Of a stretch of DNA of 64,000 nt, positions 10,021 to 13,877 are shown piece after piece. The DNA comes from Rhodanobacter sp. (GTDB lineage: Bacteria; Pseudomonadota; Gammaproteobacteria; Xanthomonadales; Rhodanobacteraceae). Numbering within the stretch: position 1 is the first letter of the stretch; each line of letters opens with the position of its first letter. Position numbers and translations under genes: made by a program. The notes under the pieces were generated by a model. The model was not told the origin of the DNA. It searched no databases and worked only from the letters and a program-made list of their open reading frames with translations. Where the stretch lies: positions 1 to 64,000 of the forward strand of contig SCSE01000039.1 of the NCBI GenBank assembly GCA_004298015.1. Direction: 5' to 3'.

Positions 10021-11478
10021 GTGAGCAGCCCGCACCCCATGGATTCCCTGATCGCGCAAGCCGAGAGCAAGCTGCTGGTTCCCGGTGGTCTTGCCACCGG
10101 CGATCTGGATCGCGTGTTTACCCAGTTGATGGGGCCGTCGATCGACGCCGCCGATTTGTATTTCCAGCATTCACGCAGCGAGTCGTGGTTGCTCGAGGAA
10201 GGCATCGTCAAGGACGGCAGCCACTCGATCGAGCAAGGCGTGGGGGTTCGTGCCATCAGTGGCGAGAAAACAGGATTTGCCTATTCCGACGAGATCGTGC
10301 TGCCGCAGCTGCTGGAGGCCTCCAGGGCGGCGCGTGCGATCGCCCACGATGGCAAGGGTGCCGGCAAGCCCCTGGCGCTGCACGGTGCCCGTCAGCTGTA
10401 TCCCGCGCTCGATCCGGTCGAGAGCCTGCCCAATCCCGACAAGATCGCGTTGTTGCGCGAGGTCGACGCATACGCCCGCTCCCGCGATCCGCGCATCAAG
10501 CAGGTAATCGTGAGCCTGGCCGCCACCATGGACACGATCCTGATTGCCGCCTCCGACGGTACGCTGGCGGCGGATGTGCGTCCCCTGGTGCGCCTCAGCG
10601 TGCAGGTGATTGCCGAGCAGAACGGTCGCCGTGAGCAAGGCCATTCGGGCGGCGGTGGCCGTTATGGCTACCGTGAATTGATCGAAAATGGCCGGGCGCT
10701 GGCATTCGCCGACGAGGCCGTGCGCCAGGCGCTGGTGAATCTCGACGCGATCGATGCACCTGCGGGGCAGATGACGGTGGTACTCGGCCCCGGCTGGCCC
10801 GGCGTGCTGCTGCACGAGGCGATCGGCCACGGACTGGAGGGCGACTTCAACCGCAAGGGCAGCTCGGCGTTTTCCGGTCGCATCGGTCAGCGGGTGGCTG
10901 CCAAGGGCGTCACCATCGTCGACGACGGTACCCTGCCAGGCCGCCGCGGATCGCTCAGCATCGACGACGAGGGCACGCCAACCGAGTGCACTACCCTGAT
11001 CGAGGATGGCATCCTCAAGGGCTACATGCAGGACAAGTTGAATGCCCGGCTGATGGGTATGGCACCGACCGGCAACGGACGCCGCGAATCGTTTACCGCG
11101 TTGCCGATGCCACGCATGACCAACACCTACATGCTGGCCGGATCACATGACCCGGGCGAGATCATCCGCTCGGTCAAGCATGGTCTGTACGCACCCAATT
11201 TTGGTGGTGGTCAGGTCGACATCACGAATGGCAAATTCACCTTCTCCGCCAGTGAGGCCTATCTGATCGAGGACGGCAGGATCACCGCGCCGGTCAAGGG
11301 CGCCACCCTGATCGGCAACGGTCCGGAAGTGCTTACGCGCGTCTCGATGATCGGCAACGATCTCAAGCTGGACGAGGGTGTCGGGGTGTGTGGCAAGGAT
11401 GGGCAGAGCGTGCCGGTCGGGGTCGGGCAGCCGACGTTGAAAATCGATGCGATGACGGTGGGCGGCACCGTTTCGTAG
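10021..11478 (+). CDS. tldD: Metalloprotease subunit TldD
   Basis: A 485-residue TldD. The zinc motif [11 protein letters not shown] is present (H265, E266, H269), as is the C-terminal Cys ligand C457 in GVGVCGKDG. TldD and TldE (PmbA) form a heterodimeric protease that degrades unfolded peptides, takes part in CcdA turnover and trims microcin-type peptides. The partner pmbA is at 14280-15662. The start is GTG at 10021; an ATG at 10039 (MDSLIAQ) is possible and neither has a strong ribosome-binding site. It lies 60 bases after yhdP, probably in the same transcript. Confidence 0.94.
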
Positions 11479-11760: not shown

Positions 11761-11802
11761 TTGATCAAAGTCAAAACAGCCGACGGCGTGCGTCTTTACG
11801 AT
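11761..11802 (+). promoter_or_regulatory. FNR/Anr-type class II promoter for the cytochrome-porin
   Basis: TTGATCAAAGTCAA at 11761-11774 matches the FNR/Anr consensus TTGAT-N4-ATCAA at nine of ten fixed positions. A -10-like TACGAT follows at 11797-11802. With a start at A11809, the box centre is at -41.5, the classic class II activator position. The site lies 72 bases before the ATG of the cytochrome-porin, which has its own GAGGAG at 11832-11837. The rest of the 368-base gap after tldD (11479-11760) shows no gene that I can support. Confidence 0.65.
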
Positions 11803-11846
11803 CTCCTCAACAAGATTTTAACCACTGGATCGAGGAGTGCAGACGC

Positions 11847-13226
11847 ATGTATACGAAAGAAAGGCAAGATCCTGAACGGGTCCTATCCAGGGGCTGGTGG
11901 CTGCGCCATATCGTGGTTGCAGCCTGTCTGTTGCTCGCACCCACGTTGGCGCAGGCGGTGCCGGCGTATGCGCGACAGACCCAATTGCCATGCACGGCCT
12001 GTCATGTCGGTGGCTTTGGTCCCGAGCTCACCCAGTTCGGTCGCCAGTTCAAACTCATGGGCTACACCATGAAAGTCGGCAACCAGGCGAAGATCCCGTT
12101 GTCGGCGATGCTGGTCGAGTCGTTCACGCACACCCGCAAGGCGCAGGCGACCGCCCCGAACACCAACTTCGACACCAACAACAACTTCGAGTTGCAGCAA
12201 GCCTCGATGTTCCTGGCAGGACGACTGAGTGAGCACATGGGTGTGTTTGCCCAGGCGACCTACTCCCAGAATGGCGGCCTGCTGGGCTGGGACAACGCCG
12301 ATATGCGCTATGCGCGCATGTTCAGTCATGGGAGCCATACCGGTATCTGGGGCATCTCGGTCAACAACAATCCCACGGTCAGTGACATCTTCAACACCGC
12401 ACCGGCCTGGATGTATCCGTACATGGCCCCGGATCTTGCGCCTGGAGCGCCCGCAGCGCCGATGTTGTTCGGCGGTATCGGTGGTCAGGCGATCGGTGCC
12501 AGCGCCTACGCTCAGCTGGACGGCAAGTGGTATGTGGAGGTGGGTGGCTATCGGTCACTGTCGGTGGCCTTCCTGAACCACGTCAACGCAGGCTATGACG
12601 GCAAACTGGCCGGCGCTGCCCCGTATGCACGTGTGGCCTACACCTGGAACCTGCCCAGCGGCGACTTTTCCATCGGTGGCTTCCTGTTTGACATGAAGCG
12701 GGGGCTGGTCGGCGCCGATGCTGCTGGCAACCCGGTGCCGCTGGCCGGTCCCACCGATCACTTCAACGATCTTGGCCTGGACTCGACTTACCAGTATGTG
12801 GATGACAGCTATGCGCTGACCTTCGAAGGGATCTATGTCAATGAACAGCAGAAGCTCAACGCCACGTTCGCCGATGGAGGCTCATCGAATCTGCACAACA
12901 GCCTGCAGTCCCTCAACCTCAAGGGCAGCTACTGGTACCGCAATACCTACGGGTTGACGCTGGCATCATTCGCCAACAACGGCAGCAGCGATATCACGCT
13001 GTATGGCAACAATGGTTCGCCGAATACACAGGGTGGCATGCTCGAGTTTGACTACAACCCGTTTGGTCAGGCGACCTCATGGAAGGAGCCTTATGCCAAT
13101 ATGCGCCTGGGCTTGCAATACACCTTCTATTCGAAGTTCAGTGGTCTGGTACACAACATCGACGGTACCGGGCGCAACGCCAGCGACAACAACACCCTCT
13201 ACCTCTATATGTGGCTGGCGATCTGA
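11847..13226 (+). CDS. Cyc2-like fused monoheme cytochrome c / outer-membrane porin
   Basis: A 459-residue exported protein. The signal peptide ends at about residue 37 (TLAQA/VPAYARQ). Directly after it is one heme-binding CTACH (C49-C52-H53) followed by FGPELTQFGRQFKLMGY. The remaining 390 residues are alternating, aromatic-rich beta-strands with Asn/Gly turns, as in an outer-membrane barrel. One CXXCH at the N-terminus plus a porin of this size is the architecture of Cyc2, the iron-oxidising outer-membrane cytochrome. The resemblance is by motif and layout only. Start: ATG 11847 with GAGGAG nine bases upstream. It is a single gene between tldD and darP, with an FNR-type promoter before it and a terminator after it. 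Direction of electron flow and substrate are unknown. Confidence 0.75.
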   Translation: MYTKERQDPERVLSRGWWLRHIVVAACLLLAPTLAQAVPAYARQTQLPCTACHVGGFGPELTQFGRQFKLMGYTMKVGNQAKIPLSAMLVESFTHTRKAQATAPNTNFDTNNNFELQQASMFLAGRLSEHMGVFAQATYSQNGGLLGWDNADMRYARMFSHGSHTGIWGISVNNNPTVSDIFNTAPAWMYPYMAPDLAPGAPAAPMLFGGIGGQAIGASAYAQLDGKWYVEVGGYRSLSVAFLNHVNAGYDGKLAGAAPYARVAYTWNLPSGDFSIGGFLFDMKRGLVGADAAGNPVPLAGPTDHFNDLGLDSTYQYVDDSYALTFEGIYVNEQQKLNATFADGGSSNLHNSLQSLNLKGSYWYRNTYGLTLASFANNGSSDITLYGNNGSPNTQGGMLEFDYNPFGQATSWKEPYANMRLGLQYTFYSKFSGLVHNIDGTGRNASDNNTLYLYMWLAI

Positions 13227-13325: not shown

Positions 13326-13877
13326 TCAGGCGACATCCCCGGGATCGTCCCGGGACAGGTCCTTCAACAGCTGGAATATGTCGCGATAGGCCCGCAGCGG
13401 CTTGCCGGCGGTGCGTTCGCTGCGGGCCTGTCGGATCAGTGAGCGCAGGTGCTGGCGATCGATCTGCGGGTGGGCTTCGATCAGCGCGGACAGCGCCTCC
13501 TCATCGCCGTCGAGCAAAGCGTCGCGGAGTGCCTCGAGCCGATGCATCGCGGCGTTTTCCTGCCGTTGCTTCTCACGGTTTTCGCCCAGTTCGGCACGCA
13601 CTGCGGCGAAGTCCTCCTCGCTGAAGCGGCGCATGACCTTGGCAAGGAAGGCGAGCTGGCGTTTCTTCGCGCCGTGCGAGGTGATGCGGCGGGTGATGTC
13701 GATCTCACGGCGCACGTCGTCGGGCAGGTCGAGTCTGGCCAGCCGACTGGGTTGCAGTTCAATCAGTTGGCCGGCCAGCGTCAGCACGGCCAGTGCCTCG
13801 CGGCGCTTCTGGGTCCGACTGGGGCCATAGTCCTCGTCGTCAAGTTCGGTCTGGTTGCGGCTGCGACTCGGGCTCAC
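13326..13877 (-). CDS. darP: Ribosome-associated protein DarP (YjgA)
   Basis: A 183-residue, highly charged helical protein of the YjgA family, now named DarP. It associates with 50S precursors and helps late large-subunit assembly. Family features are GPSRTQKRREALAVL near the N-terminus, LARLDLPDDVRREID, and the C-terminal HLRSLIRQARSERT followed by KPLRAYRDIFQLLKDL. Length is normal. In many gammaproteobacteria darP lies next to pmbA; here it is on the opposite strand, separated from pmbA by the small DUF1653 gene. Confidence 0.93.
   Translation of the reverse strand: MSPSRSRNQTELDDEDYGPSRTQKRREALAVLTLAGQLIELQPSRLARLDLPDDVRREIDITRRITSHGAKKRQLAFLAKVMRRFSEEDFAAVRAELGENREKQRQENAAMHRLEALRDALLDGDEEALSALIEAHPQIDRQHLRSLIRQARSERTAGKPLRAYRDIFQLLKDLSRDDPGDVA

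Follow-up and report, generated by a model that had tools for sequence, protein, structure and literature searches.

The outer-membrane cytochrome-porin Cyc2 of iron oxidisers has been defined by a signal peptide, one heme, the motifs AXPX(F/Y)ARQT and PXL, and a 16-stranded barrel (Keffer et al., 2021; PMC8406198). The same source describes the function of Cyc2 homologues outside the classic iron oxidisers as an open question, and holds that homologues distant from the tested proteins still need their function verified. Cyc2 homologues in Rhodanobacter and the Rhodanobacteraceae are already in print (PMC5566968; PMC10654088), and there are precedents for Cyc2 together with nitrate reduction in 'Ca. 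Ferristratum', in which adding Fe(II) was followed by a joint rise of cyc2 and narG (PMC8406198), and in 'Ca. Siderophilus' (PMC10993476).

Here we describe a cyc2-like gene of Rhodanobacter sp., found in a 64,000-nucleotide stretch of one contig (the window). Like the Cyc2 of iron oxidisers, the window protein has a signal peptide, one heme motif, AXPX(F/Y)ARQT, a PXL sequence and a modelled 16-stranded barrel (PMC8406198). Unlike it, the protein falls outside the 19-row tree set that includes a rus-operon Cyc2 and has its PXL 6 rather than 4 residues past the heme histidine, while its gene stands alone between tldD and yjgA behind an apparent FNR-class II promoter, and its function is a predicted one. 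The Cyc2 homologue of the Rhodanobacter from culture KS (He et al., 2017; PMC5566968) shares genus, family and nitrate-reducing setting with ours; the available text of that paper reports its presence and says nothing on its regulation. In the Bradyrhizobium Cyc2 cluster cited there (PMC5566968), HiPIP and three cytochromes c accompany the gene, similar to what we see in relatives of the window gene, whereas no carrier gene is adjacent to the window cyc2 itself. 'Ca. Siderophilus nitratireducens' (PMC10993476) is proposed to combine cyc2, RuBisCO and nitrate reduction in one organism, as here, but it uses nap, is described as being without nirKS and norBC, and FNR control is not named in the available text. 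Redox-responsive control of ferrous iron oxidation genes is likewise known from Acidithiobacillus ferrooxidans, although RegB/RegA is a two-component system and not FNR (PMC5506826).

Among the openly licensed PMC papers listed, judged by title and the start of the abstract, we found no report of FNR control of cyc2, and what is new is therefore a Cyc2 branch under conserved low-oxygen-type control; nor did we find an openly licensed PMC paper that brings azurin, HiPIP and Cyc2 together. FNR/Anr class II promoters of denitrification genes carry TTGATNNNNRTCAA, with a -10 placed for a box centred at -41.5; the window promoter resembles these, but its target is a Cyc2-type cytochrome-porin. Such a promoter, being conserved, would link this group of Cyc2 proteins with respiration on nitrate and at low oxygen, a prediction that is easily put to the test in named isolates of Rhodanobacter and Dyella. 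Should it hold, these bacteria would regulate a denitrification fed by iron or by other extracellular electrons, which would bear on how much nitrate is removed and how much N2O is released.

The window gene and the Cyc2 family

The gene (11847..13226, forward strand) encodes 459 aa from an ATG at 11847 to a stop at 13226, with a ribosome-binding site, GAGGAG, recognised by eye 9 nt 5' of the ATG (11832..11837, forward). A longer in-frame reading frame from 11751 is possible and would overlap the FNR box described below; in the 20 orthologues with a 5' end the ATG lies 132–159 nt 5' of the heme codons, and 11847 lies at 144 nt. The neighbours are tldD upstream (10021..11478, forward; NCBIfam NF008006), also present at the loci of many same-genus cyc2 homologues, and yjgA downstream (13326..13877, reverse; NCBIfam NF003593); cyc2 is alone between them.

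The first-pass annotation had read a Cyc2-like layout from a signal peptide, a lone CTACH, FGRQFKLMGY and a long barrel, and the sequence confirms the first three. The signal peptide (11847..11957, forward; residues ~1–37, ending in AQA) was delimited by eye, and this part of the AlphaFold model is a low-confidence N-terminus with a helix at 16–29. The cytochrome segment (11955..12029, forward) comprises AVPAYARQT (residues 37–45), CTACH (49–53), which is the sole CXXCH of the protein, and PEL (59–61), with FGRQFKLMGY at residues 64–73. AVPAYARQT matches the AXPXFAR[Q/K][T/Y] consensus with Y replacing F, and two orthologues (L011, L027) have an exact AVPSFARQT or AVPAFARQT. The PXL motif (HVGGFGPEL) begins 6 residues past the heme histidine where the consensus is 4; this two-residue shift is common to many of the fetched relatives, while a rus-like Cyc2 (L212) has 4. 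The length of 459 aa compares with a Cyc2 threshold of at least 365 aa.

The barrel was likewise borne out when modelled: AlphaFold (pLDDT 89.3, pTM 0.85) places 16 barrel strands from residue 85 to 458 (predicted outer-membrane barrel, residues 85–459; 12099..13223, forward), with short helices surrounding the heme motif. Among the best 50 Foldseek matches (TMq 0.27–0.48) are the porins BpsOmp38, OmpT, Omp32 and OmpF as well as AlgE; OprP (2o4v) ranks 49th with a TMq of 0.48, the other porins and AlgE being placed above it. Pfam, NCBIfam and PDB-sequence searches with the window protein returned no named relative of note.

The relation to Cyc2 that had been suggested is upheld by full-length homology to L212 (31% identity end to end, E 6e-73; hhalign probability 100%), which we took as the reference Cyc2 from its rus-like (rusticyanin) operon context and not from a name. 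There, 3' of cyc2, come a short gene that matched nothing, then genes of the coxB and coxA types (clear matches, though under the curated cut-offs), one more gene, a weak match to heme A synthase, heme O synthase and a rusticyanin-type gene slightly under its cut-off (136.4 versus 146.7 bits); no second cytochrome c gene was seen in this operon. Together, sequence and model support the assignment of the window gene as one for a Cyc2-family outer-membrane cytochrome-porin.

For wider comparison, a genome scan found at least 590 stretches encoding a relative, of which the best 80 were kept, distant relatives being under-sampled; heme codons were located in 77 of the 80 loci, and L109, L118 and L120, in which they were not, were dropped. 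The AlphaFold alignment holds 64 sequences, with 63 of the 77 usable loci taken in. It is restricted to loci with a located CXXCH, and the invariance of the heme motif, FK and NNNP in its 64 rows proves little because the scan patterns covered, and so preselected, these very stretches. In a motif-blind protein search, by comparison, a CXXCH near the N-terminus was present in 37 of 38 homologues, the remaining one (L030) being cut at its 5' end. In a second tree, of 110 rows, the rus-operon Cyc2 falls in a 19-row set (SH-aLRT 95) that does not include the window protein and does include L031 and L043, members of another same-genus Cyc2-like group. This tree took in 23 of 27 further class-level loci (L175–L201), namely those fitting a motif pattern. 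Homologues occurred in 30 of the 60 genomes searched, own genome included: in 28 of 35 other genomes of the genus and in 1 of 24 of the order.

The predicted FNR-type promoter

Upstream of the gene lies an FNR/Anr-type box, TTGATCAAAGTCAA (11761..11774, forward; centre 11767.5), one mismatch from the palindrome TTGATNNNNATCAA. The first-pass annotation had placed it at -41.5 with TACGAT (11797..11802, forward) as the -10, and the conserved footprint agrees with this placement in 30 of 31 promoters, giving a predicted +1 near 11809. These 31 promoters are a dereplicated set in which similarity over 110 nt stays below 85%, and the box served to align them. Apart from a few positions the flanks carry almost no information (mean 0.20 bits, close to random). 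Counted from the first base of the box, position +41 stands out most (T in 25 of 31, 1.05 bits), ahead of +46 (0.76 bits), +37 (A in 22 of 31, 0.74 bits) and +62 (0.65 bits). In a hexamer at +36, positions +37 and +41 are bases 2 and 6, and these correspond to the -11 A and -7 T predicted when the box is centred at -41.5. Of the 31 promoters, 30 have a hexamer with A2 and T6 at one of the offsets 35 and 36, against a mean of 10% over all offset pairs, and the box-to-hexamer spacing is kept although box and heme codons lie anywhere from 208 to 299 nt apart. Since the box was selected for and the hexamer was not, the hexamer serves as an independent check of the -41.5 position.

The box itself is well kept among close relatives. 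In 21 loci (our own and those of 20 homologues from the genus with 62% identity or more, L030 being left out as its 5' end is absent), the best site in the region 200–290 nt 5' of the heme codons was exact in 16, had one mismatch in four and two mismatches in one. Over a longer region, 170–290 nt 5' of these codons, and among the best 80 of at least 590 loci, a box with at most one mismatch was present in 34 of the 42 relatives that share 50% identity or more and in 5 of 34 more distant loci, four of the latter alphaproteobacterial or unplaced proteobacterial; the background was 139 of 7871 segments of 120 nt drawn at random from these loci (1.8%) and 24 of 4200 shuffles. The box was absent from the searched stretch in 7 of 43 promoters, and its state on the first tree needs 10 changes. 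Taken together, these patterns support a conserved FNR-class II promoter as the predicted driver of cyc2. FNR-like boxes were also seen 5' of Cyc2 homologues at L121, L128, L129 and L130, which are the alphaproteobacterial or unplaced loci.

Across the 3.93-Mb genome, TTGATNNNNRTCAA matches in 20 places and a reversed-pattern control in none. The genes 3' of these sites include narK, narG, ccoN, hemN and nrdD, alongside others encoding a P-type ATPase, a TolC-type protein, an acetyltransferase-like protein and two sulfide-quinone-reductase-like proteins; several more had no telling match. Of the two sulfide-quinone-reductase-like genes, one is preceded by two FNR boxes 114 nt apart (L173, G000:C41:37615 and 37729) and the other also has an FNR box (L061, G000:C36).

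Electron carriers, respiration and carbon fixation

Among the best 80 of at least 590 loci, a gene for a soluble carrier lies within 600 nt of cyc2 in 38 of the 77 with located heme codons, an association that points to periplasmic electron hand-over. In that same best-80 sample, such genes are present in 13 of the 42 loci of the closer set and in 25 of the 35 others, and they encode class-I cytochrome c (14 loci), HiPIP (13), azurin (5) or a HiPIP-like small protein (6), a representative of which is without a Pfam match. Where HiPIP and cyc2 genes are divergent, a box with at most one mismatch lies between them in 11 of 12 such loci (again among the best 80 of at least 590). A cytochrome b561 gene accompanies cyc2 in seven loci of the best 80 of at least 590; it is directly 5' of cyc2 in L114, L123, L124, L136, L141, L144 and L145, with a cytochrome c gene 3' in five, and in these five of the seven b561-Cyc2-cytochrome c is a compact unit. 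Our own genome has an azurin gene 3' of its cco genes and four HiPIP matches, none of them beside cyc2.

The same genome encodes NirK with a cytochrome domain, a NorB-type NO reductase, a cbb3 oxidase and SoxY. Pieces of narG lie at several contig ends (L164, L165, L171), which suggests that several nar operons exist and could not be told apart in the assembly. With nar, nirK, an NO reductase and three FNR-type regulators, the genome bears out the denitrifier setting that had been surmised for this gene. Across the 35 other same-genus genomes, the orthologue goes with nirK (19 of 21 genomes, versus 7 of 14 without the orthologue; p 0.015) and with narG (8 of 21 versus 0 of 14; p 0.012), kinship being ignored in both tests; our own genome was left out of these counts and of those for RuBisCO, and nirK pieces below the cut-off (for example in G009 and G035) were scored as negative.

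A RuBisCO large subunit and CbbX are encoded at L170:5235-15816 (G000:C40), and by eye the remaining genes of that cluster look like CBB-cycle genes. RuBisCO was found in four of the 36 genomes of the genus (own included), all with a cyc2 orthologue, and was absent from 18 of the 21 other same-genus genomes that have one; the cyc2-RuBisCO link among these 35 other genomes was not significant (3 of 21 versus 0 of 14, p 0.26). A Rhodanobacteraceae metagenome-assembled genome has been reported to hold a full CBB cycle with no lithotrophy pathway found, as far as the available text of that study goes (PMC9802188); Cyc2 would be a candidate lithotrophy entry for it.

Proposed electron route and alternatives

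Our main reading, to which we give a probability of about 60%, is that under low-oxygen induction Cyc2 oxidises Fe(II) or another extracellular donor and feeds denitrification or the cbb3 oxidase. At low oxygen an FNR/Anr-type regulator would switch cyc2 on from the class II promoter. Some dissolved donor, with Fe2+ the likeliest, would then move into the 16-stranded barrel and hand a single electron to the heme, which would sit where the barrel opens to the periplasm. From the heme the electron would go on to a soluble carrier of the periplasm (HiPIP, azurin or class-I cytochrome c), and this carrier would feed NirK and the cbb3 oxidase, both serving low-oxygen respiration. FNR control is in keeping with iron chemistry, since Fe(II) lasts only in places with little oxygen. 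Computation shows the family, the barrel, the box with its conserved class II geometry, the sharing of this box with narG, narK, ccoN, hemN and nrdD, and the carrier genes beside relatives; that iron is the donor, which way electrons flow, which carrier this species uses and which protein regulates the gene are inferences from these. A fuller version, in which Cyc2 of the Rhodanobacteraceae admits electrons at the outer membrane to a lithotrophic module under FNR control, one that runs from Fe(II) through Cyc2 and HiPIP or azurin to NirK and cbb3 and is made together with nar, is put forward tentatively. Against the main reading stand the report on the culture KS isolate given below, the absence of RuBisCO from 18 of 21 other same-genus genomes with the orthologue, the carrier counts, with only 13 of 42 closer loci having one within 600 nt (best 80 of at least 590) and the window cyc2 having none, and the seven of 43 promoters that, like a second copy of the gene, are without the box in the stretch searched.

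The same protein and promoter might instead serve a donor other than iron for growth, such as humics, surfaces or other metals, or act in the protective removal of Fe(II) at the cell surface during denitrification, when nitrite reacts with Fe(II); we consider this possible, though somewhat doubtful. Homologues are present in many Rhodanobacter, Dyella and Lysobacter, which are mostly heterotrophic genera, a distribution in its favour, and with SoxY encoded in our genome, thiosulfate may be what lithotrophy depends on. An isolated Rhodanobacter of culture KS reportedly failed to oxidise Fe(II) on its own, while the same report records Cyc2-like proteins in culture KS and treats Rhodanobacter as an iron oxidiser (PMC11366258); He and colleagues (2017) leave other roles in extracellular electron transfer open (PMC5566968). 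On the other hand, three diverse Cyc2 representatives that have been tested do oxidise Fe(II) (PMC8406198), and the HiPIP, azurin or cytochrome c genes beside cyc2 in relatives are of the chain kind described for iron oxidisers (PMC5566968).

A further alternative concerns the signal: the box may be read mainly by an NO-sensing or other CRP/FNR protein of the Dnr kind, so that NO or nitrate respiration is what is sensed. We regard this as unlikely. Proteins of the Dnr and Anr types share one box, and the genome does encode four CRP/FNR-family proteins (E below 1e-12), both of which leave room for it, but three of the four carry the CX2CX5C cysteines of oxygen-sensing FNR. One of these three is a neighbour of hemN, a gene with this box in its promoter, and nirK and the NorB-type gene are found nearby in that stretch; the oxygen-linked ccoN and nrdD share the box as well.

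Could Cyc2 run the other way, exporting electrons under anoxia to reduce extracellular acceptors? The direction is not readable from sequence and the box is shared with anaerobic respiration genes, yet we hold such export to be very improbable. Azurin and HiPIP are high-potential carriers, and the carriers beside relatives, being of these types, suit nitrite reductase and oxidases. Measured Cyc2 potentials of +208 mV (PV-1) and 560 mV (A. ferrooxidans) (PMC8406198) are, moreover, high for reducing minerals. Finally, a plain porin in which CXXCH and palindrome both arose by chance, to which the modest TM-scores against general PDB porins and the lack of a Pfam or NCBIfam name might lend a near-negligible probability, was rejected on the conservation of the CXXCH (37 of 38 homologues, the other one 5'-cut), box and -10, and carrier genes adjoin cyc2 in relatives.

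Returning to the proposed oxidation by Cyc2 under FNR-type control, the genus holds further Cyc2-like proteins that would mostly lie outside that control. Two more same-genus Cyc2-like groups (L031 and L043; L032–L037 and L044–L047) are ~28–40% identical to the window protein, and the box is absent from these relatives except at L031, whose site is further out. Our own genome has a second Cyc2 copy, 83% identical, at L039:9361-10737 (reverse strand; G000:C46), and no FNR box was found at it or at its counterpart L040. Downstream lie a gene for a di-heme peroxidase of the CCP/MauG type (PF03150) and genes that by eye resemble ccm, and 5' of the copy there are transposase-like fragments; this copy is a recent duplicate under other control.
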